From positions 45,195 through 109,194 of the forward strand of contig NZ_CAMZFB010000004.1 in the NCBI RefSeq assembly GCF_947305955.1: a DNA stretch of 64,000 nt, written 5' to 3'. This stretch comes from an uncultured Brevundimonas sp. (GTDB taxonomy: Bacteria; Pseudomonadota; Alphaproteobacteria; Caulobacterales; Caulobacteraceae). The translations under genes and the position numbers were made by a program. This document shows, in pieces, positions 20,963 to 33,359 of the stretch. Every line of letters begins with the position of its first letter. The stretch's first letter is position 1. Under the pieces are notes generated by a model that had not been told where the DNA came from, ran no database searches, and saw only the letters and a list, made by a program, of their open reading frames with translations.

Positions 20963-21649
20963 ATGGCAGGGGTGAACCGTACGGCATTGAAGCTGGCGAA
21001 GTTGGCCGTATTTCTTGCGGTGATCGCACCATTGGTTGCTCTGGTGGCTGTTCTGGCTGTCCGAATGGGGTTGGCGGACCTGAAGCCCGCGCTTCAGGTC
21101 GTCACCCTTCGCGGCGGGCTGGCCATGGCGTGGATAGGTGGGCTGGCAGGCGTCTTGTCGATCCTGTTGGTCTTCTGGTCGCGTCCGGTATGGCCCTATG
21201 CTGCCACTGCGCTGGTGGTCGGGCTTGCCAGCCTGCTGATCTATCAGGTGCAGGCCATCCGCTTTTATCCTGCGCCCCGCGACGTCGCGAGCGATCTGGA
21301 AGAGCCGCCAGCCTTCGGTCGCCAGATGCTGTCCGAGCGCCGTGCCGAACGTGTTCCGGCCAGCCAGCCGCAAAAATGCGACGGCCTTGAAGGCATCGAC
21401 AGCCAGTTGGCCCCCGAGGTTGTGGCTTGGGGCATGAAACAGGCGGGGCTGACCGTCATGGGAACATCGCCCTTCCGTGTCGAAGGCTGGCAGCAGGGCA
21501 TGTGGTTCGGCATCCAGCACGACGTGACCGTCCGCATCCGTCCGGGCCGCACCGATATCCGCGTGGCAGGACGTGATCAGCTCGCGGTCGGCCCGCGCGC
21601 CTGCGACCTCGCCAAGAAGGTGGTGGCCGAGATTAACGCCCTGCGTTGA
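20963..21649 (+). CDS. DUF1499 domain membrane protein
   Basis: A 228-residue protein with three membrane helices (about 12-33, 47-67 and 73-93) and a periplasmic C-terminal domain (about 110-228). The latter has 'WGMKQAGLTVM', 'HDVTVRIRPGRTDIRVAGRDQLAVG' and 'ACDLAKKVVAEINAL', the pattern of DUF1499. AAGGAG precedes the ATG. The gene follows the acyl-CoA ligase by 25 bp and its 3' end overlaps the convergent MBL-fold gene by 17 bp. Function unknown. Confidence 0.8.
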   Translation: MAGVNRTALKLAKLAVFLAVIAPLVALVAVLAVRMGLADLKPALQVVTLRGGLAMAWIGGLAGVLSILLVFWSRPVWPYAATALVVGLASLLIYQVQAIRFYPAPRDVASDLEEPPAFGRQMLSERRAERVPASQPQKCDGLEGIDSQLAPEVVAWGMKQAGLTVMGTSPFRVEGWQQGMWFGIQHDVTVRIRPGRTDIRVAGRDQLAVGPRACDLAKKVVAEINALR

Positions 21650-22547
21650 CGGGCTGAACGAGGGTCCAGACGCCCTCCAGCCCGCTTTGCCCCGCGACCG
21701 AAACGGTGCCGTCATTCACCAGCTTTTGCAGATGCGACAGCACCGACAGACTGGCCGCGGGCCACAGGCTCGGACTGACGGCGGCATAGAGAACGGGCAC
21801 CATCTCGGCGATGGTGCGATCACCCGCTGAAAGTCGTTCCAGTATCTGGCGCTCGCGTTCCAGCCGGTGCGCCTTATAGCCAGCAAGAAATGGCGCGACG
21901 TCGGTGATCGGGGCACCGTGCGTGGGCCAAATGACGTGGAAGTCGCGCGCGATCACCTTGTCCAGACTGGCCATATACTGGCTCATATTGCCGTCCGGCG
22001 GGGCGACGATGGTGGTCGACCACCCCATGATGTGATCGCCACTGAACAGGCCGTTTTCTTCCAGCAGCGCAAAGCAGATGTGGTTGGACGCATGGCCCGG
22101 GGTGGCAACCACTTCGAGGGTCCAGCCATGGCCCTCGATCCGGTCGCCATCGCTGACCAGCACGTCGGGGCTAAATCGGTCGTCGTCCTCGGCATCGAGT
22201 TGCCCGCCACCTGCGTTGTGGGGCAGGGGGGCGGCATAGATGGCAGCACCCGTCGCCTTGGAAAGACGTTCGCTGAGAGGAGAGTGGTCGGCGTGGGTGT
22301 GGGTGACAAGGATGTGGCTGACCGCGCGGCTGCCGATGGCGCGCAGCAGGGCATCCAGATGCACCTCATCCAACGGCCCGGGATCGATCACCGCCACAGC
22401 GGCACCTTCATGGCTTCCGCCGACGATATAGGTGCCGGTCCCTGTAAAGGTGAAGGGACCGGGGTTGTTGGCAATCACGCGCTCGACCCGTTCGGACAGC
22501 CGGTCACAGCGGCCGTATTCAAAGTCGAACGATTTGATGAACTGCAT
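21633..22547 (-). CDS. MBL-fold metallo-hydrolase (LACTB2/GloB-like)
   Basis: A 304-residue metallo-beta-lactamase-fold hydrolase. Metal ligands are visible in 'LVTHTHADHSPLSE' (HxHxDH), 'VVATPGHASNHICF' (third His) and 'LFSGDHIMGWST' (Asp), with a final His in 'WPTHGAP'. The C-terminal winged-helix-like region matches LACTB2-type proteins, which act on RNA or thioesters. ATG 22547 is chosen over a TTG two codons earlier. Overlaps the DUF1499 gene end-to-end. Substrate unknown. Confidence 0.88.
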   Translation of the reverse strand: MQFIKSFDFEYGRCDRLSERVERVIANNPGPFTFTGTGTYIVGGSHEGAAVAVIDPGPLDEVHLDALLRAIGSRAVSHILVTHTHADHSPLSERLSKATGAAIYAAPLPHNAGGGQLDAEDDDRFSPDVLVSDGDRIEGHGWTLEVVATPGHASNHICFALLEENGLFSGDHIMGWSTTIVAPPDGNMSQYMASLDKVIARDFHVIWPTHGAPITDVAPFLAGYKAHRLERERQILERLSAGDRTIAEMVPVLYAAVSPSLWPAASLSVLSHLQKLVNDGTVSVAGQSGLEGVWTLVQPVNAGR

Positions 22548-22567
22548 GGACAACCCCGCGAACCCTA

Positions 22568-23119
22568 TTAGCGGCGTCTGTTTACCCTAATCGCGCTCGC
22601 ACGTCCCACGGTCAGCAGATAGCTGTTCATCGCGCCCCTGCGGATGCGCACTTCGGTGCCCGGTCGCGACGAGAAATAGGGGTTGGATGTGTCCAGCTGC
22701 TCCCATTCCGAACCGTCGGCGAGCACGAACCGCCACACACCTGCCGGTGAACGATTTGCGGACACAATTGTCGTTTCGATCTCGCTGATCTCTTCGGAGT
22801 CCGAGGATAGAAATTGCGGAACGCTGATACGGTCAATTCCAAACAGCCCGCGACGGGCAGCGCGGATTTCCGCTTTGTAAACAGGGACAAGATCGCCGCT
22901 GGCAATCTCGGCCTTCACCTGCGAGGTCCGAGAATCAAAGCACGCTAGGCGGGCGGTGCCGTCGGCAATTTCGCCACAGGCGAGCAGGGTGTTGAGGCTC
23001 GTGCCGGTATCCGGAACAGCGTTCGCGCTTTGAGCGTGGCTATTAGAAGTTGGCACTAAAAATGTCGCAATTCCAAATGAAAGAACTGCGATACTGCAAA
23101 GGTTGTTGGAAATTTTCAC
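22568..23119 (-). CDS. Small exported protein, paralogue of 26443-26937, divergent from a TonB receptor
   Basis: A 183-residue exported protein with a signal peptide (residues 1-30, cleavage likely after SHA-Q). The mature N-terminus has 'LLACGEIADGTARLACFDSR', the C-x(n)-ARLACFD motif seen in many small periplasmic proteins, and probably one disulfide. The middle is polar. The C-terminal half has 'WRFVLADGSEWEQLD', then 'VRIRRGAMNSYLLTVGRASAIRVNRR'. The same order of motifs occurs in 26443-26937. Each of these genes is divergent from a TonB-dependent receptor gene, so a role at the receptor or its substrate is inferred. No family function is known to me. Confidence 0.75.
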   Translation of the reverse strand: MKISNNLCSIAVLSFGIATFLVPTSNSHAQSANAVPDTGTSLNTLLACGEIADGTARLACFDSRTSQVKAEIASGDLVPVYKAEIRAARRGLFGIDRISVPQFLSSDSEEISEIETTIVSANRSPAGVWRFVLADGSEWEQLDTSNPYFSSRPGTEVRIRRGAMNSYLLTVGRASAIRVNRRR

Positions 23120-23130
23120 CTGCTAATTCC

Positions 23131-23140
23131 TCTATATAGA
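23131..23140. promoter_or_regulatory. Palindrome TCTATATAGA in the first receptor/exported-protein divergent region
   Basis: The 248-bp gap between the divergent starts at 23119 and 23368 is AT-rich at this end and holds this perfect 10-bp palindrome, 12 bp upstream of the small gene. Elsewhere in the gap I see no strong promoter or hairpin. GGAGG lies ahead of the receptor ATG. Operator assignment is tentative. Confidence 0.3.
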
Positions 23141-23367
23141 AATAGCTTAGCTTTGAGCGGCTGATCCAAAGCGTTGCTAAATTATGACATTATCTAGGCC
23201 GATTTGTTGCCCGAAGTTAATTGTGTTGGCCTAGCTGTGCCATAAAGTTCTACGGGTGGATGTCGGTCACAAACCAGAGTTCCGCTGGATTTGCTGACGG
23301 GGAAACAGGGCCGGTTGAGACGGGGGTAACCGAATTTCGCCGGTCCATTTGGAGGTAAGAGAGAGAC

Positions 23368-26300
23368 ATGAAGTCGATTTCAAAGCGCGAGCGCTTGCTC
23401 GCAACTTCGATTATCGCCGGCTTTACGGCTCTGGGCGCTGCGGGCATGGCCCACGCTCAGGAATCGGAGACCACCCAGGTCCAGGACATCGTCGTCACTG
23501 GTTCGCGTATCGTCCGTCAGGACTATAATGCTCCGAGCCCGGTCACGACCGTGACCGCCGAAACCATCGAACTGACCAGCACGCTGTCGGTCGAAAACCT
23601 GCTGAACCAACTGCCGTCGGTGGTTGCCGGTAACATGGCTACCTCGAACAACTCGGGTGGTGAATCGTTCGCAACCGTCGACCTGCGTGGTCTGGGTACC
23701 TCGCGTACTCTGGTCATCGTCAACGGCGAGCGTGTTCCGGCTTCGTCGACCACCGGCGTTGTCGACATCAACTCGATCCCGTCGGCCCTGATCAACCGCG
23801 TTGAAGTCGTGACCGGTGGTGCATCTGCCGTTTACGGTTCGGACGCTGTTGCCGGCGTTGTGAACTTCGTCCTGAAGGACGACTACGAAGGTGCCGAAAT
23901 CTCGGCCTCCTACGCCCAGTCGTTCGACGGCTACAAGCCGGAATTCACCATCAACGGCCTGATCGGTGGTAACTTCGCCAACGGTCGCGGTAACATGACC
24001 GCCTACGCCAGCTACTACAGCCGTGAGGGCGTAAGCCAAGGCGACGTTCCGTTCGCTTCGGTCTCGCGCGGCGTTGCCTACACCGCTGATGGCCGTCCGG
24101 TTGTCGTCGGTAGCGCCCAAGAGTACTGGGATGCTGTCGCCGGTGGTGGCGGTAACTACTTCTCGGGTGGTTCGGGCACCTCGGCTTGGGGTACTATCTA
24201 TAACAACGGCAACAACCCGTTCGCGGGTCTGGGTGCCGCGGTTGCTGGCGCTGGTAACACCAACTTCCTGGCCGGCAATTATGACGTCAATTGCGATGGT
24301 GTGGCCAACACTGCTGACTATAACGCAGGCAACCTGTCGTTCGACACCTCGGGCAAGCTGACGCCGTTTGCGGGTTCGGGCGGTTGTACAGTTCCGGATC
24401 GCGCTGCTGGTTCGTCGCGCTATAACTACGGCCCGGACAACTACCTGATCCTGCCGTCGGAGCGCTTCAATATCTCGACCGTCGGTCACTATGACTTCGA
24501 GAACGGCGTCCGCCTGGATCTGCGTCTGAACTATGCCAACACCTGGCAAGAAGTTTCGCTGGCTCCGACCCCGGCCACCGGTCTGGTTGTCAACCTGACC
24601 CCGGCCATGCAGGACCTGATCCAGACCAAGCACGCCGACCTGTGGGCTGCGCTGCAAACTCGTGCTGATCCGCTGGCTCCGTTCAACATGGACCGTCGTA
24701 CCAACGAACTGGGTCCGCGTCTGGGTGAGACCAAGTCTAGCGCCCTGTCGATGATCGGTACCCTGTCGGGTGACTTCGGTGACTCGGGCTGGGATTGGTC
24801 GCTGACCGCCAGCTATGGCAAGAACCAGCTGCAGGACAACGGCAAGAACTCGGCCAACAAGACCGCCTTCTTCCAAGGTCTGTCGGGCTGTCAGGATCCG
24901 ACCTCGGGTGCTTCGCTGGGCTCGAATGCACTGCCGGGCTGCGTGCCGCTGGATATCTTTGGCGAAGGCACTCTGACGCAGGAAATGGTCAACTTCCTGA
25001 CCGTTCCGACCTTCTCGACCACCGACATCGAAGAGTCGCGCTTGGCTGCCTTCGTTCGTGGTTCGCTGATGACCCTGCCGGCTGGTGATCTGGCTGCTGT
25101 GTTTGGTGTGGAATGGCGTGAAAGCCGCGCATCGTTCCAAGTCGACAATGAACAGCGCGCCGGTAACATCTATGGCTTCAACGCCATTCAGGACCAAAAC
25201 GGCTCGGTCAGCGTGACCGAACTGTACGGCGAACTGTCGGTTCCGCTGCTGCGTGACCTGCCGGCCGCCAAGTACCTGGGCCTGGACTTCGGTTACCGCT
25301 ATTCGGACTACAGCACCGTTGGCGGTCTGGACACCTACAAGGTTGGTCTGGAATACGAGCCGCTCGACTGGCTGAAGTTCCGTACCGTGTTCAACTCGGC
25401 TGTTCGTGCTCCGAGCATCTTCGAGCTGTTCCAAAACGGTGACCAAGGCTTCCCGTCGGTTATCGACCCCTGCATGATCCAGGGCGGTCAAGCTCCTTCG
25501 GGCGCTCTGGCTAACCTGTGTAACCTGCAAGCTCCGGCGATCGACTTCACCACGGGTCTTACCCAGGCTAACAGCCAGACCGAAGCTTTCGCTTTCGGTA
25601 ACCCGGACCTGAAGCCGGAATCGGCCGAAACCTTCACCATCGGTGCAGTGTTCCAGCCGAAGTCGTTCCCGATCGGCAACTTCCGCGCCACCATCGACTA
25701 CTATGATATCGAAATCACCGACATCATTGCGTCGCTGGGTGCTTCGTACTGGGTGAACTCCTGCTACAGCGGCCTGGACATCAACTCCACCGCCTGCTCG
25801 AAGGTGTTCCGTGACCAAGTCACCGGTCAGCTGGACTACGTCAACACCAGCCGCGTGAACGGTGGTTTCTACCGTACGAAGGGCTACGACACCCAGATCG
25901 ACTGGAGCGTCGACCTGGCTGACTACGGCTGGAAGGGCCGTCTGGCCTTCAACGAACTGCTCACCATCGTTAAAGAGCTGAACTTCGACGGCGACGACGA
26001 TGTCGGTAACGCATGGGCCTCCATCGGCGGCGCATCGTTCGACTGGAAGTCGGTTCTGTCGGTGACCTACGACATCGGTGACTGGACCCTGTTCGGCCGC
26101 TGGTCGTACACCCCGGAACTGAACGACGTCACCTTCACCAACGCCTTCGATGACACGGTCTACAAGACCCCGGCCGCTAGCTACGTCGATTTCTCGGCCC
26201 GCTGGAATGTCACCGACAGCCTGCAACTGACGGCCTTCATCGGTAACGTCTTCGACAAGACCGCTCCGCTGCTGCCGATCGGCGTTTACAACGGTCAGGC

Positions 26301-26376
26301 CAACACCGACGTGCAGATCTACTATCCGGGTCTGTTCGGCCGTAACTTCTCGATCTCGGCCCGCGCCAAGTTCTAA
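23368..26376 (+). CDS. TonB-dependent outer membrane receptor (first of three)
   Basis: A 1002-residue receptor that would import a substrate across the outer membrane using TonB/ExbBD energy. Signal peptide residues 1-30 ('GMAHAQ'). 'QDIVVTGSRI' near residue 40 contains the likely TonB box. The plug spans about 55-165, with 'GLGTSRTLVIVNGERVP' and 'GGASAVYGSDAVAGVVNFVL'. The rest is the 22-strand barrel, ending in Phe ('ARAKF'), as needed for BAM insertion. Extracellular-loop regions hold close Cys pairs (e.g. 'GCQDP...GC', 'NSCYSG...AC'). Strong codon bias suggests high expression. It is divergent from a small exported protein gene and ended by a UUCG hairpin terminator. Substrate unknown. 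Confidence 0.92.
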   Translation: MKSISKRERLLATSIIAGFTALGAAGMAHAQESETTQVQDIVVTGSRIVRQDYNAPSPVTTVTAETIELTSTLSVENLLNQLPSVVAGNMATSNNSGGESFATVDLRGLGTSRTLVIVNGERVPASSTTGVVDINSIPSALINRVEVVTGGASAVYGSDAVAGVVNFVLKDDYEGAEISASYAQSFDGYKPEFTINGLIGGNFANGRGNMTAYASYYSREGVSQGDVPFASVSRGVAYTADGRPVVVGSAQEYWDAVAGGGGNYFSGGSGTSAWGTIYNNGNNPFAGLGAAVAGAGNTNFLAGNYDVNCDGVANTADYNAGNLSFDTSGKLTPFAGSGGCTVPDRAAGSSRYNYGPDNYLILPSERFNISTVGHYDFENGVRLDLRLNYANTWQEVSLAPTPATGLVVNLTPAMQDLIQTKHADLWAALQTRADPLAPFNMDRRTNELGPRLGETKSSALSMIGTLSGDFGDSGWDWSLTASYGKNQLQDNGKNSANKTAFFQGLSGCQDPTSGASLGSNALPGCVPLDIFGEGTLTQEMVNFLTVPTFSTTDIEESRLAAFVRGSLMTLPAGDLAAVFGVEWRESRASFQVDNEQRAGNIYGFNAIQDQNGSVSVTELYGELSVPLLRDLPAAKYLGLDFGYRYSDYSTVGGLDTYKVGLEYEPLDWLKFRTVFNSAVRAPSIFELFQNGDQGFPSVIDPCMIQGGQAPSGALANLCNLQAPAIDFTTGLTQANSQTEAFAFGNPDLKPESAETFTIGAVFQPKSFPIGNFRATIDYYDIEITDIIASLGASYWVNSCYSGLDINSTACSKVFRDQVTGQLDYVNTSRVNGGFYRTKGYDTQIDWSVDLADYGWKGRLAFNELLTIVKELNFDGDDDVGNAWASIGGASFDWKSVLSVTYDIGDWTLFGRWSYTPELNDVTFTNAFDDTVYKTPAASYVDFSARWNVTDSLQLTAFIGNVFDKTAPLLPIGVYNGQANTDVQIYYPGLFGRNFSISARAKF

Positions 26377-26405
26377 GAAGTACGACCACTCGGTCTACAA
26401 AAGGG

Positions 26406-26433
26406 AAGGCGGTAGCTTCGGCTACCGCCTTTT
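26406..26433 (+). terminator. Terminator of first TonB receptor
   Basis: AAGGCGGTAGC-TTCG-GCTACCGCCTT with UUCG tetraloop, then TTTC. The stem ends 10 bases before the convergent small gene's stop. Confidence 0.9.
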
Positions 26434-26442
26434 CTTTTGCGC

Positions 26443-26937
26443 CTAGTCCACGCGGCGGACGCGGATGTCGCGTCTGTTTTCGATTTGCAGGAAATAGCTG
26501 CCAAGCGTGGCGCGTTTGACCACGACAGATTGGCCGGCGCGCATACCGGGGCGCACGCGGTCGCTGTCGGTTTGCAACCATTGGGAGCCGTCGGCCAGGG
26601 TGAAGCGATGCTTCCCGTCACCCAGCGCAGCGGCACTCGCCAAAGTTGATTCGATCCGGTCCGGAGCCTCTACGCCAAGCGTTGCGGCGATGGTTTCGTC
26701 ACGCCTCTGTCCAAAGGTGGACCGGCTGCGTTCTTCCGCTGCGGCCTTATCGATCACCATCACATCGCCCTGGGCGATACGGGTGCGGAGCTGCTGCGCC
26801 TCGTTCCGGAAGCAGGTCGCCACGGCTTCGCTTGATGACAAATTCTCACAGTTAAACAATGCGGTCAGTGGTTCAGCTTGACCATAAGAGAATATGGCCA
26901 AGCTTGTTAATAGTGAAGCTTGAGTAATTATTATCAT
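26443..26937 (-). CDS. Small exported protein, paralogue of 22568-23119, divergent from a TonB receptor
   Basis: A 164-residue exported protein. The signal peptide is residues 1-20 (ends 'SYGQA'). 'LFNCENLSSSEAVATCFRNE' corresponds to the C...C motif of its paralogue, although the ARLACFD core has drifted. A polar helical region follows ('AQQLRTRIAQGDVMVID'), then 'HRFTLADGSQWLQTD' and 'VVVKRATLGSYFLQIENRRDIRVRR', which line up with the paralogue's C-terminal half. The repeated pairing of this family with a divergently transcribed receptor gene argues for a functional link. Function unknown. Confidence 0.75.
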   Translation of the reverse strand: MIIITQASLLTSLAIFSYGQAEPLTALFNCENLSSSEAVATCFRNEAQQLRTRIAQGDVMVIDKAAAEERSRSTFGQRRDETIAATLGVEAPDRIESTLASAAALGDGKHRFTLADGSQWLQTDSDRVRPGMRAGQSVVVKRATLGSYFLQIENRRDIRVRRVD

Positions 26938-27095
26938 TGGAAGCTTTGCCTTAATTGGTTGACGTCATAACGTGTGTTCAAAAGGTGACTCAATTATCTT
27001 GATAATGTCACATATGTCGCAATTGTGTGGCAAATTCCTCTTTCGGATAACAGCATGCGGTCGGGCATTTATTTTATGCTGTTGGAGGATTCGAC

Positions 27096-30000
27096 ATGTC
27101 GAAGTTCAGAGGGCGGCCAGGTCTATTGGCTACAAGCATTCTGGCGGGCTTTACCGTCGCCGGAATGGCATCTACCGCGTTTGCACAGGAAGCCGTGCCG
27201 CAAGAGGGCGATCAGGCCACTCAGGTGAGCGACATCGTCGTTACCGGCTCGCGCATTCGTCAGCGCAACCTTGAGACGACCAGCCCGGTCGTTCAGGTCA
27301 CCGGTGAGGATATCGACGTTGCCGGTGTGACCCGCGTCGAGGACCTGGTGGCCCAGCTGCCGCAGGCTTTCGCCGCGCAAAACTCGACCGTGTCGAACGG
27401 TGCATCGGGTACCGCAACCGTCTCGCTGCGCAACCTCGGCTCGTCGCGCACCCTGGTGCTGATCGACGGTCGCCGCATGGGCTATGGCTCGCCGAACGAC
27501 GACGCGGCCGACCTGAACCAGATCCCGGAACAACTGGTTGAGCGCGTTGAAGTGCTGACCGGTGGTGCCTCGGCTATCTACGGTTCGGATGCTGTGGCCG
27601 GCGTCGTCAACTTCATCATGAAGAAGGACTTCGAAGGTCTGCAGATCGACGCTCAATACGGCTTCTATCAGCACAACAACGACTATGATGGTCCGGGCAA
27701 TCTGCGCAACGTCATCCAAGGTCGTGCTGCACTGAACCCGTCGCAGTTCGTCCTGCCGGACGACAACGTGGTCGACGGTGAAAGCCGCTCGATCAACGCG
27801 GTTATGGGCGTGAAGTCCGACGATGGTCGCGGCAGCCTGATGGCCTATGCCGGCTATCGTAAGAACAATCAGGTCATCGGTGCCGAGCGCGACTATTCCT
27901 CGTGTTCGCTGGGCGGTACCGCCGCCAACGGCACTGACTTTACCTGCGGTGGCTCCGGCACGGCCTTCCCGGGCCAGTTCATCTCGCTGGCCAATGATGG
28001 TGCGTTCACGGTTGGCGGTTCGTCGGGCGTGGGCAACGGCACCTTCACGCCGTACAGCACGGCGACCGGCGCTTATAACTTCGGTCCGGTGAACTACTTC
28101 CAGCGTCCGGATGAGCGTTACACCCTGGGTGCCTTCGGGACCTATAAGCTGAACGACAAGGCTGAGGCCTTCGCCCAGTTGATGTTCTCGGACTATTCGT
28201 CGATTGCACAAATCGCCCCGTCGGGGGCCTTCCTCGGCCCGATCATCAACGTCAGCTGCGCCAACCCGCTGCTGTCGGCTCAACAGGCCACGGCTATCGG
28301 CTGTGACGCTGGCACCACCTCCGTCGACATGCTGATTGGTCGTCGTAACGTTGAAGGCGGCGGTCGTCAGGACTCGATCAACTACCAGTCCTACCGTGGC
28401 GTCATCGGCGTTCGTGGCGCGATCAACGAGAACTGGAACTACGATGTTTCCGGCCAGTTCTCGCGTGTTCGTCTGGCCCGTACCTATCTGAACGACTTCT
28501 CCAACACCCGCCTGGGCCGCGCGTTCGACGTGGTTGACGTCAACGGCGTGCCGACCTGTCGGTCGGTTGTGGATGGCACGGACACCGCTTGCGTTCCGTA
28601 CAACATCTTCTCGCCGGGCGGCGTGACGCAGGAAGCGCTCGACTACCTGCAAATCCCGCTGATCCAAACCGGTGAAACCACCCAGCAGGTGCTGTCGGCT
28701 GTTATCAGCGGCGATACCGGCTTCGGCTTCTCGACGGCCAACAACAACATCCAGATCGCTGTGGGTGCGGAATATCGCCGTGACTCGCTGAACTCGGTCA
28801 CCGACACCTCCTTCGCCACCGGCGACGGTGCAGGGCAGGGCGGTCCGACCATCGGCTTCAGCGGTAATGCCTCGGTCATCGAAGGCTTCGTCGAAGTTCA
28901 GGTGCCGATCGCTGACAACCAGCCATGGGCCTACACGGCCTCGCTGGATGCGGCCTACCGTCACTCGCAGTACTCGAACTTCGAGACCGACACCTACAAG
29001 GTGGGTCTGGACTACGCGCCGATCGAAGACGTCCGCTTCCGCGGCAGCTATTCGCGTGCTGTTCGTGCGCCGAACGTGATCGAGATGTTCGCTGCCCAGG
29101 GCTTCAACCTGTTCGATCTGGACTATGATCCGTGCTCGGCACCGGGTCGTGCGGCCAATAATGCAGGTCCGGTTCCGGCCGCCTGTATCGGTACCAACCC
29201 GTGGCAGGTCACCGCGGCTCAATCGGCCAACAACCTGCTAAACAACCCGTCGGGCCAGTACAACTTCCTGCAAGGCGGTAACCCGAACCTTGAGCCGGAA
29301 GAAGCCGACACCCTGACCTTCGGTGTCGTTCTGACCCCGCGCTTCCTGCCGGGCTTCAACCTGTCGGTCGACTACTACGACATTCAGGTCGACAACCTGA
29401 TCGGTCAGATCGGTGCGCAGAACGTGCTGGACGCCTGCTACACGGCGAACAACGCGCAATCGTGCTCGCAGATCAACCGTGATCCGGGTACGGGTGCCTT
29501 CTGGCTGGCCGACGGCCACATCGTCGATACCAATGTGAACATCGGCGGCGTGAAGACCTCGGGTGTCGACATCAACGCCAACTACTCGGTTGATCTGGAA
29601 AACTGGGGTGCCCCTTCGTACGGCTCGCTGGCCTTCAGCTTCGCCGGTACCTGGCTGGAAAGCCTCGAGACCGACACCGGTCTGGGCTTCGCCAACAGTG
29701 TCTACGACTGCACCGGCTTCTATGCGAACCAGTGCGGCGTGCCGAACCCGGAATGGCGTCACCGCGCCCGTGTCACCTGGATCACGCCTTGGGACATGGA
29801 CCTGTCGGCTACGTGGCGTCACTACGGTGGCACCGAGATCGCCGTGCTGGGTGACGATGGCAGCCTGAACAACAGCGGCCCGCGTGTGGACCGCGAGCTG
29901 GACGATCGTAACTACCTCGATCTGGCGATGACGTGGCAAGCCCGCAGCAACCTGAAGATCCGCGCCGGCGTGAACAACGTGCTGGACAACGATCCGCCGC

Positions 30001-30101
30001 TGTCGGCCAGCGTGGGTACCACGGGCAACAACAACACCTATCCGCAGCTCTATGATGCGATGGGTCGCTACATCTTCCTGGGTCTGACGGCCGACTTCTA
30101 A
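27096..30101 (+). CDS. TonB-dependent outer membrane receptor (second of three)
   Basis: A 1001-residue receptor: signal peptide 1-31 ('STAFAQ'), TonB-box region 'SDIVVTGSRIRQRNLETTSP', plug to about residue 175 ('NLGSSRTLVLIDGRRMGYG', 'GGASAIYGSDAVAGVVNF'), then a long barrel ending 'GLTADF'. It is very similar along its whole length to the following receptor, e.g. 'AQYGFYQHNNDYDGPGN' is identical, and only moderately similar to the preceding one. Cys pairs recur in the loops ('CRSVVDGTDTAC', 'DPCSAPG...AACIG', 'VYDCTGFYANQCG'). The start is ATG 27096 with TTGGAGGA upstream. Divergent from a small exported protein gene; terminator downstream. Substrate unknown. Confidence 0.93.
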   Translation: MSKFRGRPGLLATSILAGFTVAGMASTAFAQEAVPQEGDQATQVSDIVVTGSRIRQRNLETTSPVVQVTGEDIDVAGVTRVEDLVAQLPQAFAAQNSTVSNGASGTATVSLRNLGSSRTLVLIDGRRMGYGSPNDDAADLNQIPEQLVERVEVLTGGASAIYGSDAVAGVVNFIMKKDFEGLQIDAQYGFYQHNNDYDGPGNLRNVIQGRAALNPSQFVLPDDNVVDGESRSINAVMGVKSDDGRGSLMAYAGYRKNNQVIGAERDYSSCSLGGTAANGTDFTCGGSGTAFPGQFISLANDGAFTVGGSSGVGNGTFTPYSTATGAYNFGPVNYFQRPDERYTLGAFGTYKLNDKAEAFAQLMFSDYSSIAQIAPSGAFLGPIINVSCANPLLSAQQATAIGCDAGTTSVDMLIGRRNVEGGGRQDSINYQSYRGVIGVRGAINENWNYDVSGQFSRVRLARTYLNDFSNTRLGRAFDVVDVNGVPTCRSVVDGTDTACVPYNIFSPGGVTQEALDYLQIPLIQTGETTQQVLSAVISGDTGFGFSTANNNIQIAVGAEYRRDSLNSVTDTSFATGDGAGQGGPTIGFSGNASVIEGFVEVQVPIADNQPWAYTASLDAAYRHSQYSNFETDTYKVGLDYAPIEDVRFRGSYSRAVRAPNVIEMFAAQGFNLFDLDYDPCSAPGRAANNAGPVPAACIGTNPWQVTAAQSANNLLNNPSGQYNFLQGGNPNLEPEEADTLTFGVVLTPRFLPGFNLSVDYYDIQVDNLIGQIGAQNVLDACYTANNAQSCSQINRDPGTGAFWLADGHIVDTNVNIGGVKTSGVDINANYSVDLENWGAPSYGSLAFSFAGTWLESLETDTGLGFANSVYDCTGFYANQCGVPNPEWRHRARVTWITPWDMDLSATWRHYGGTEIAVLGDDGSLNNSGPRVDRELDDRNYLDLAMTWQARSNLKIRAGVNNVLDNDPPLSASVGTTGNNNTYPQLYDAMGRYIFLGLTADF

Positions 30102-30130
30102 GCCGGAATCACCTGGAAGATTGAATTGGG

Positions 30131-30154
30131 GGCGGCAGATGTTAATCTGCCGCC
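30131..30154 (+). terminator. Terminator of second TonB receptor
   Basis: GGCGGCAGAT-GTTA-ATCTGCCGCC, perfect 10-bp stem followed by TTCTTTTTG. Confidence 0.9.
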
Positions 30155-30162
30155 TTCTTTTT

Positions 30163-30374
30163 GTCTCAAATAGACGATCATTACGCCAAGGTAATATTTT
30201 CGGCCCAGCTTCGACTTATTTGAGTATATCGTCGTAATATTTATGTGTTTAAAAAGAAACAGAGCAATGTGTTTGGCTGAACATTGCAATCTGTACATTT
30301 GATATTCCACGCAGGACTAACTCTTCTTCCGCTCCGTTAAATCGCTCGGGTATTCGTCCCGAAAAGGAGAGGGA
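30163..30374. other. AT-rich intergenic region upstream of third TonB receptor
   Basis: About 210 bp, AT-rich, no ORF of note and no strong hairpin. TTGCAA at about 30285 followed by GATATT could be a weak promoter for the third receptor. AAAAGGAGAGGG precedes its ATG. Unlike the other two receptors, no small exported protein gene lies here. Confidence 0.4.
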
Positions 30375-33359
30375 ATGTTGAAAGTCCACGGCAGGCGCGG
30401 CCTGCTCGCCGGTTCCATGTTGGCCGGCCTTTGCACCTTCGCCATGGCGGCCCCCGCCACGGCCCAGGAAGTCGATGACGGTGTCGCCGAAGTCGAACAG
30501 ATCGTCGTCACCGGCTCGCGCATCCGTCAGCGCAATCTGGAAACCACAAGCCCGATCACCCAGGTGACCGGCGAGGATATCGACGTCGCCGGTGTGACCC
30601 GCGTCGAAGATCTGGTGACCCAGCTGCCGCAGGCTTTCGCTGCCCAGAACTCGACCTCGGCCAACGGTGCCTACGGCAACGCCACGGTGTCGCTGCGCAA
30701 TATGGGGGCCAACCGCACGCTGGTGCTGATCGACGGTCGCCGCATGGGCTACGGCTCGCCGAACGACGTGGCAGCCGACCTGAACCAAATTCCGGAACAG
30801 CTGATCGAGCGCGTCGAAGTGCTGACCGGCGGTGCCTCGGCTATCTACGGCTCGGACGCCATCTCGGGCGTGGTGAACTTCATCACCAAGAAGGATTTCC
30901 GTGGCCTGCAGATCGATGCCCAGTACGGCTTCTATCAGCACAACAACGACTATGACGGTCCGGGCAATGTGCGCCGTGCCGTGTTGGACAGCGCCAAGCG
31001 CAATCCGGCTGAATACGTGATGCCTGATGATAATGTGTCGGACGGCGAGAGCCGCTCGATCAACATCATCATGGGTACCGGTTCGGATGACGGCCGTGCC
31101 AACCTGATGGCCTATGCGGGTTACCGCCGCAACAACGAGATCGTCGCCGGCCAGCGTGACTTTGGTGCCTGCGCGCTGGGTCTGGACGCAGAAACGGACC
31201 CGTACAACTTCTACTGCTCGGGTTCGGGAACCTCATACCCGGGCCAGTTCCGCAACCTGCTGAACGGGGACACCCTGACGATCGGGGGCAGTGCCGATAA
31301 CGGGACCTTTGTGCCGTACGACAAGACGACGGGTGTCTACAACTATGGTGCCAATGTGCACTTCCAGCGCCCGGATGAGCGCTACATCCTCGGTGCCATG
31401 GGTTCGTATAAGATCAATGATCGTGCCGAGGCCTACGCCCAGCTGATGTTCTCGGACTACAAGTCCGTGGCACAGATCGCTCCGGCAGGGGCCTTCATGG
31501 GGCCGATCATCAATATGAAGTGCGGCAACCCGCTGTTGTCGGCACAACAGCGTACGACGCTGGGCTGCGGCGGTGCCGTAACCGAAGTCGAGATGATGAT
31601 TGGTCGCCGTAACGTCGAGGGCGGTCCGCGTCAGGATTCGATCCACTACAACTCATTCCGGATGGTGACGGGCGTTCGCGGCGCACTGACCGACAGCTGG
31701 AACTATGACGTCACGGGCCAATTCTCGCGCGTGGGTCTGGATCGCGTCTACAACAACGACTTCTCGAAAGAGCGTCTGGCGCGTGCCTTCGACGTGGTTG
31801 ATGTCAACGGCGTGGCGACCTGCCGCTCGGTTGTGGATGGCACGGACAAGAACTGCGTGCCGTACAACATCTTCTCGCCGGGTGGCGTGACCCCAGAAGC
31901 GCTGAAGTATCTTCAGATCCCGCTGCTGCAAAGCGGCTACACCACCCAGCAGATGGTGACGGCTGTCGCCAGCGGCGATCTGGGCGTGAAGATGCCGTGG
32001 TCGGACCTGACGGCTCAGGCAGCTCTCGGCGTTGAATATCGCCGTGACGCGCTGGAATCCCACGCCGATGCCGCGTTCGAAGCCAACGACGGTGCAGGTC
32101 AAGGTGGCCCGACCATCGGCTATTCGGGTTCGGCTGACGTGATGGAAATCTTTGGCGAGCTGCAACTGCCGCTGGCCGAGAATAAGTCGTGGGTCTACTC
32201 GTCGTCGCTCGACATGGCCTATCGCTATTCGAAGTACGACAACTATTCGGCCGATACCTACAAGATCGGTCTGGATTACGCCCCGACCGAGGATGTGCGT
32301 TTCCGCGCCAGCTTCTCCAAGGCTGTCCGTGCTCCGAACGTGATCGAACTGTACCAGGGCCACGGCTACAACCTGTCGTATGCCAAGTTTGATCCGTGCT
32401 CGACGGTGGGCCGCGGCGGTGCCGTTCCGGCCTCGTGTATCGGTACCAATCCGTGGCAGGTTACCGCGGCGCAGGCTGCGGACCCACTGCTGTACAACCC
32501 GTCCGACCAGTACAGCTTCAAACAGGGCGGTAATACCAACCTGACGCCGGAAGAGGCCGAGACCTTCACCTTTGGTGCTGTGTTTACGCCGCGCTTCCTG
32601 CCGGGCTTCAACCTGTCGCTCGACTATTATGACATCAAGGTCGAAAACCTGATCGGCAACCTCGGCATTCAGAACATCTTCGATGCCTGCTATGTCGCGA
32701 ACATGACCCAGATGTGCGAGCGCATCAAACGTGACGCACGAACCGGTTCGCTGTGGCTGAACGAGGGCCACGTTGAGGACACGAGTGTCAACATCGGTGG
32801 CCAGCGCACGTCTGGCATCGACTTGAACGCCAACTACTCGGTTGACCTGAGCGACTGGGGCGCGACGGACATGGGCCGTCTGGCCTTTGGTATGTCGGGC
32901 ACCTGGCTGCAAAGCCTCGAAACCGACACCGGTCTGGGCTTCTCGAACAGCGTCTATGACTGCGCAGGTTACTATGGCAGCGTCTGCGTGCTGCCGAACC
33001 CGGAATGGCGTCACCGCGCCCGTGTGACGTGGATGACCCCGTGGAACGTCGATCTGACGGCCACCTGGCGCCATATCGGCAGTGTGACCCAAGCTCACCT
33101 CGCTCCCGACGGTAGCCTGGGTGGTGCTCCGGCATCGGCGGAGTACGAACTCAGCGACCGTAACTACATCGACCTGGCAGTCACCTGGCAGGCCCGTCAC
33201 AACCTCAAGGTTCGTGCCGGTATCAACAATGTGTTCGATATCGATCCGCCGCTGACCCAAGATGCCGGTTCGCAATCGCTGGGCAGCAACAACACCTATC
33301 CGCAAGTCTACGACTCGATGGGTCGGTTCATGTTCGTGGGTCTGACCGCCGACTTCTAA
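30375..33359 (+). CDS. TonB-dependent outer membrane receptor (third, tandem duplicate of second)
   Basis: A 994-residue receptor with signal peptide 1-31 ('APATAQ'), TonB-box region 'QIVVTGSRIRQRNLETTSP', plug 'NMGANRTLVLIDGRRMGYG' and barrel ending 'GLTADF'. It aligns with the second receptor throughout with few small gaps, so the two arose by tandem duplication and have since diverged mainly in loop segments (for example the region after 'AGYRRNNEI' and the last third of the barrel). The same Cys pairs are kept. GGAGAGGG precedes the ATG. Its own terminator follows. Substrate unknown; diverged loops suggest a related but different ligand. Confidence 0.93.
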   Translation: MLKVHGRRGLLAGSMLAGLCTFAMAAPATAQEVDDGVAEVEQIVVTGSRIRQRNLETTSPITQVTGEDIDVAGVTRVEDLVTQLPQAFAAQNSTSANGAYGNATVSLRNMGANRTLVLIDGRRMGYGSPNDVAADLNQIPEQLIERVEVLTGGASAIYGSDAISGVVNFITKKDFRGLQIDAQYGFYQHNNDYDGPGNVRRAVLDSAKRNPAEYVMPDDNVSDGESRSINIIMGTGSDDGRANLMAYAGYRRNNEIVAGQRDFGACALGLDAETDPYNFYCSGSGTSYPGQFRNLLNGDTLTIGGSADNGTFVPYDKTTGVYNYGANVHFQRPDERYILGAMGSYKINDRAEAYAQLMFSDYKSVAQIAPAGAFMGPIINMKCGNPLLSAQQRTTLGCGGAVTEVEMMIGRRNVEGGPRQDSIHYNSFRMVTGVRGALTDSWNYDVTGQFSRVGLDRVYNNDFSKERLARAFDVVDVNGVATCRSVVDGTDKNCVPYNIFSPGGVTPEALKYLQIPLLQSGYTTQQMVTAVASGDLGVKMPWSDLTAQAALGVEYRRDALESHADAAFEANDGAGQGGPTIGYSGSADVMEIFGELQLPLAENKSWVYSSSLDMAYRYSKYDNYSADTYKIGLDYAPTEDVRFRASFSKAVRAPNVIELYQGHGYNLSYAKFDPCSTVGRGGAVPASCIGTNPWQVTAAQAADPLLYNPSDQYSFKQGGNTNLTPEEAETFTFGAVFTPRFLPGFNLSLDYYDIKVENLIGNLGIQNIFDACYVANMTQMCERIKRDARTGSLWLNEGHVEDTSVNIGGQRTSGIDLNANYSVDLSDWGATDMGRLAFGMSGTWLQSLETDTGLGFSNSVYDCAGYYGSVCVLPNPEWRHRARVTWMTPWNVDLTATWRHIGSVTQAHLAPDGSLGGAPASAEYELSDRNYIDLAVTWQARHNLKVRAGINNVFDIDPPLTQDAGSQSLGSNNTYPQVYDSMGRFMFVGLTADF

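Follow-up and report, generated by a model that had tools for sequence, protein, structure and literature searches.

Caulobacteraceae and related bacteria have many TonB-dependent receptors (TBDRs); few of these receptors have known substrates, and onward transfer through the periplasm is poorly understood. In the SusC/SusD, RagA/RagB, BtuB/BtuG, and FusA/FusC systems the receptor gene is persistently linked to the gene for a second exported protein, and partners of the SusD, RagB, BtuG, and FusC types are surface lipoproteins or proteases. A 64,000-nucleotide stretch of DNA from an uncultured Brevundimonas species (contig NZ_CAMZFB010000004.1, positions 45,195 to 109,194; referred to here as the window) also encodes exported proteins beside TBDRs. 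Unlike the SusD-type partners, these proteins are small, soluble, and predicted to be periplasmic, have another fold, and are transcribed divergently from the receptor. Here we describe the family to which they belong, the persistence of its pairing with TBDRs through receptor exchange, and a tentative role in the uptake of peptides or peptide-like compounds. The features of the two pairings are as follows.

22568..23119, minus strand: small exported protein 1, 183 amino acids, GTG start; predicted signal peptide, Cys48/Cys60 helical hairpin, and C-terminal beta barrel at residues 113-182
23120..23367, no strand: head-to-head intergenic region 1, 248 bp; weak match to a receptor-directed element at 23168-23193 (plus strand)
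23368..26376, plus strand: TBDR TB1, 1,002 amino acids; PF07715 (1e-22) and PF00593 (8e-32); receptor clade T5
26443..26937, minus strand: small exported protein 2, 164 amino acids, more diverged; homology to small protein 1
26938..27095, no strand: head-to-head intergenic region 2, 158 bp; direct repeat TGTCGC-N5-TGTGGC at 27015-27031 and matrix match at 27011-27036 (minus strand)
27096..30101, plus strand: TBDR TB2, 1,001 amino acids; Plug and barrel domains

Both small open reading frames had been pointed out by an earlier, sequence-only reading of the window, and both were present on the minus strand. Their relatedness, which it had also asserted, was upheld by BLASTP (31% identity over 131 amino acids, E value of 6e-18, a value that applies to the single pairwise comparison of the window proteins). 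The layout that it had ascribed to them was found in most respects, with a cysteine pair (C48/C60 of protein 1), an LADGS-x-W block, and a basic end, but the proposed VR-x-x-R ending was only approximate, the actual ending being IRVxR. A typical signal peptide was found in small protein 1 and a weaker one in small protein 2.

When a profile of the two window proteins was searched against 199 genomes of Caulobacteraceae, family relatives were found in 131 genomes and in 17 of 22 genera, with named relatives in Phenylobacterium, Caulobacter, and Brevundimonas. The E values were 1.6e-106 and 1.1e-82 for the window proteins, as follows from construction of the profile, and extended down to 7.5e-13 among the matches listed for the 130 other genomes. 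The window genome contained these two copies and one insignificant partial match (E 0.014). Remoter relatives were present in 23 of 385 genomes from other families of the class. The consensus of the family is L..CR...D..ARLACYD.AA..L..AE..GDVVVVDR.Q....RRQAFGF.LPSL..F in the N-terminal part and G.W...L.DGAVW.Q.D......G..V.IR.A.LGS..M.VDGQ.AIRV.R in the C-terminal block. In a 61-row alignment the two cysteines, an FG pair, and the tryptophan of the DG..W block were invariant. An N-terminus resembling a signal peptide was present in 98 of 107 relatives, as called by a simple hydrophobicity rule rather than by SignalP. Only 1 of the 107 had a lipobox-like string, which does not fit a surface lipoprotein of the SusD or BtuG type. 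Sequence searches of Pfam, NCBIfam, PADLOC, and the PDB with both small proteins gave no match, and a scan of viral contigs gave two weak matches. No description of a pairing between such a protein and a TBDR was found in the literature, although most subscription papers were outside the search, so that this absence is weak evidence. Judged from their sequences, the small proteins are an undescribed secreted family.

The association with TBDR genes was evaluated with 107 family genes that were gathered by sequence alone, their neighbors being read only afterwards. As would be expected from the claim that the small genes pair with divergently transcribed receptor genes, the profile search that the sequence-only reading had called for yielded homologues that were mostly divergent from TBDR genes: 93 of the 107 had a divergent TBDR upstream within 6 kb, 63 of these at less than 1 kb and 30 more farther away (distances measured to the start of the profile match). 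Among 114 Caulobacteraceae-type loci made nonredundant at 80%, 61 were immediately head to head with a TBDR gene and 27 had one or two genes between. With 37 matches to the TBDR barrel in the 2.83 Mb of the window genome, a head-to-head position would be expected by chance for about 1% of genes. Chance is therefore excluded by the 63 immediate pairings and the 93 within 6 kb. Nor is the small protein a general TBDR neighbor, because the small gene was missing from each of seven other large TBDR loci that were inspected in the window genome.

The gene lying between the small gene and the TBDR was usually that of a family-5 solute-binding protein (SBP), in gaps of about 2 kb, or that of a 2-oxoglutarate (2OG)-Fe(II) oxygenase, in gaps of about 1.45 kb. 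FecI-FecR was considered as an occupant of the 2-kb gaps and rejected, the family-5 SBP gene having been found there. Genes for a TPR-sulfotransferase, a TPR-aspartyl/asparaginyl hydroxylase, another 2OG oxygenase, or a retropepsin-like protease were within 6 kb in 45 of 85 loci, recurring at L107, L083, L097, L109, L117, L065, and others. In the window genome, no cluster of these enzyme genes was found around those seven other large TBDRs.

It could be that shared ancestry of a stable region is all that keeps the small gene beside a receptor gene. In Brevundimonas the flanks are indeed conserved as well, with an MBL hydrolase gene on one side and MetH on the other, along with an acyl-CoA ligase gene, and simple counting therefore overstates the independence of the loci. 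However, the linkage is kept across different flanks, swapped receptors, and inserted genes, and it recurs in other families with other orientations. For example, small proteins that are 81% identical (loci L121 and L085) adjoin TBDRs that are 35% identical, and small proteins that are 74% identical (L113 and L081) adjoin TBDRs that are 30% identical. The small-protein tree required a minimum of 24 receptor-type changes when nodes with support below 0.95 were collapsed, and 33 when only nodes below 0.5 were collapsed, with receptor types simplified to average-linkage clusters by distance. The divergent layout was kept in 102 of 106 nonredundant pairs. Passive synteny, which was already disfavored, is thus very unlikely, and a functional link is likely because the pairing survives receptor exchange.

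The family is also associated with genes of peptide import by oligopeptide (Opp/Dpp) ATP-binding cassette (ABC) transporters and family-5 SBPs. Opp-type permease genes were near 23 of 85 loci and SBP_bac_5 genes near 11 of 85, so that many loci resemble Opp/Dpp systems in what flanks the small gene; canonical Opp systems, in contrast, are without such a protein and usually without a TBDR. In five distant loci (L247, L253, L254, L258, and L262) the small gene neighbored genes for Opp permease and ATPase components, and there was no TBDR. It was head to head with a family-5 SBP gene in all of these except L254, a locus that ends on the side where the SBP gene would lie. In five other distant loci (L255, L259, L260, L261, and L264) a TBDR adjoined the small gene in a different orientation. 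These associations with TBDRs on the one hand and Opp/SBP genes on the other tie the family to two components of one kind of uptake route. They also bear on the possibility that the small protein is a periplasmic chaperone for the folding of receptors of about 1,000 amino acids or their delivery to the β-barrel assembly machinery. A helper that is indifferent to the substrate would be expected to tolerate very different receptors, as this pairing does, but the other large TBDRs of the window genome are without the small gene and distant lineages have it with Opp/SBP genes and no TBDR. A role in receptor biogenesis is, on balance, distinctly unlikely.

Most head-to-head gaps contained an 11-bp direct repeat directed toward the TBDR, TGTGrC-N5-TGCGACA, one written form of which is TGTGAC-N5-TGCGACAG. 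In 49 of the 58 head-to-head gaps called outside the window, the element outscored the 99th percentile of shuffled sequence, and in 48 it faced the receptor; the matrix was trained on those same gaps. In cross-training, a matrix trained on Brevundimonas found 24 of 39 others, and one trained on the others found 16 of 19 Brevundimonas gaps. The element was absent from all 10 gaps in which the divergent gene encodes something other than a TBDR, including gaps between the small gene and an SBP gene. Where present, the element is followed downstream by a conserved inverted repeat and a TTGACC -35 box. The window matches were weaker: a matrix trained without the window gave 13.3 bits in region 1 and 12.4 bits in region 2, the 99th percentile for shuffled sequence being 10.1. 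The idea of one operator serving both directions from the gap was unsupported, since the conserved elements face the receptor.

The repeat spacing suggests an OmpR-type response regulator as the candidate binding factor. ChvI was rejected in this role, its published motif (TTGC-N3-GCAA) differing from the element. A regulator at the repeat, perhaps OmpR-type, raises the possibility that the small protein is an envelope sensor, that is, a periplasmic signal-input factor controlling receptor expression. The exact pattern occurred only once or twice in each of 11 Phenylobacterium genomes, 12 of the 14 sites being at small-gene loci, and this near uniqueness speaks for such a role. There is also an analogy in Caulobacter crescentus, in which YjbI, a secreted protein, turns off TBDR expression by silencing two two-component systems (PMC12864828). 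Like the small protein, YjbI is secreted and has a Cys pair, and it affects TBDRs; it differs in being a pentapeptide-repeat beta helix that works through ChvGI and UzcSR (PMC12864828). However, no regulator gene was consistently linked to the family, the small protein has no regulator domain, the element is missing from the gaps between small and SBP genes, and distant relatives pair with Opp/SBP genes instead. A regulatory role is therefore rather unlikely.

On the receptor side of Phenylobacterium gaps (L060, L079, L095, and others) the 5' leader was strongly conserved (CGGGACCGATCTC..TTTTGTGGGGAGCGG ... CCGCTGGAGGA), and this leader may be a site of RNA-level control. The sole exact copy of TGTGNCNNNNNTGCGACA in the window genome (G000:C6:71015-71032; L314:5016) is about 180 to 200 bp upstream of another TBDR gene (858 amino acids), on the opposite strand, a position that could be due to chance.

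The reading that we favor, with a probability of roughly 0.4, makes the small protein a soluble accessory that would act in the periplasm as part of a dedicated uptake route through TonB-dependent receptors, the most likely substrates being peptides or peptide-like compounds. It draws on the homology and export signals of the small proteins, their lasting head-to-head linkage to TBDR genes through receptor exchange, the nearly unique element facing the receptor, and the Opp and SBP genes found at many loci. The small protein would reside in the periplasm with its cysteines joined in a disulfide, and its C-terminal barrel might contact either the incoming substrate or the periplasmic side of the receptor, at the plug or TonB box. 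In this way it could assist in transferring the substrate from the receptor, first to the family-5 SBP and then to the Opp transporter. Several points weigh against this proposal. A TBDR was out of reach in 25 of the 114 nonredundant Caulobacteraceae-type loci, some of which were cut by contig ends. No Opp gene adjoining the small genes was found in the window. Membership of the neighboring genes in the SBP and Opp families suggests peptides as substrates without proving it. The conserved gap DNA faces the receptor only and thus gives no sign of coregulation of the small gene. The suggestion in the sequence-only reading that the small protein works with the receptor accordingly stands in so far as a functional link is likely, and is complicated by the distant Opp loci without TBDRs and by gap DNA that is conserved only toward the receptor. 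It is a more doubtful proposition that the family is a receptor-independent periplasmic adaptor, combining a TBDR partnership kept through many receptor swaps, a link to peptide ABC import, and a dedicated promoter element.

If the favored role in TonB-dependent uptake is correct, a conserved soluble partner would offer a handle on substrate transfer and a way of sorting orphan receptors. The route would also be a candidate entry point for peptide antibiotics; the Caulobacter TBDR BugA admits bacitracin and vancomycin (PMC12864828).

AlphaFold2 modeling with 61 sequences predicted a helical hairpin (residues 39-50 and 54-74) followed by a six-stranded barrel (113-182), with a mean predicted local distance difference test score (pLDDT) of 80. 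The barrel modeled alone had a pLDDT of 88 and a predicted template modeling score of 0.74. A fold search of the PDB gave no confident match, the best E values being 0.07 for the full model and 0.12 for the C-terminal domain, and the weak matches were all small barrels of OB/SH3-like type.

The hairpin region accounts for a weak likeness to VasI, which would make the small protein a type VI secretion system accessory. PF11319 was matched by 58 of 61 members (best E 5e-5) and TIGR03360 by 57 of 61 (best 3.5e-5), and the N-terminal 25 to 40 residues share with VasI a C-x(11)-C arrangement with an RLACYD-type core. However, where inspected, the match was mostly confined to these residues, and the remainder of the small protein and the gene context are different. 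The best PF11319 score was 20.9 bits over about 30 residues, below the gathering score of 26.5 bits, and the longest stretch covered model positions 1-81 of 184 at 17.5 bits. Type VI secretion genes were not seen among the identified neighbors (TBDR, Opp, SBP, MBL, hydroxylase, and sulfotransferase genes), although not every neighbor was identified. VasI membership was rejected on the N-terminal-only match and the score below the cutoff. The likeness is a common hairpin element, and a VasI-type accessory role is extremely improbable.

Two further genes adjoin the pairings in the window.

21633..22553, minus strand: MBL-fold hydrolase, codirectional with small gene 1 and 14 bp downstream of it
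30375..33359, plus strand: TBDR TB3, 994 amino acids, without a small partner; Plug and barrel domains; tandem copy of TB2

The MBL-fold hydrolase gene possibly shares a transcript with small gene 1, and 57 of 85 family loci had a gene of this type no more than 6 kb from the small gene. All three plus-strand neighbors, which the sequence-only reading had called TBDRs, had Plug and TonB_dep_Rec beta-barrel domains above the cutoff, and its estimates of about 250 and 160 bp for the head-to-head gaps agree with the 248 and 158 bp measured. Small gene 2 is, in addition, tail to tail with TB1 at a distance of 66 bp. The third receptor lacks a small partner, as had been noted, and is a tandem duplicate of TB2 (67.8% identical, compared with about 35% to TB1).

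The sequence-only reading had described a pairing repeated twice side by side. The two pairings are not one duplicated pair, and co-duplication was rejected as an explanation, because TB1 and TB2 are only 35% identical and belong to separate receptor clades. Relatives of TB1 in clade T5 adjoin the small gene in other genera, and the identity between TB2 and receptors paired with the small gene in other Brevundimonas reaches 78%. Small protein 2 has diverged to an unusual degree, its identity to relatives not exceeding 43% despite the 78% that TB2 reaches to theirs, perhaps reflecting relaxed constraint following gain of a second copy. Loci L087 and L099, from another genus, have a layout like that of the window, with a TB1-type receptor between two small genes, which suggests that the block of TB1 and its two flanking small genes predates the genus of the window.

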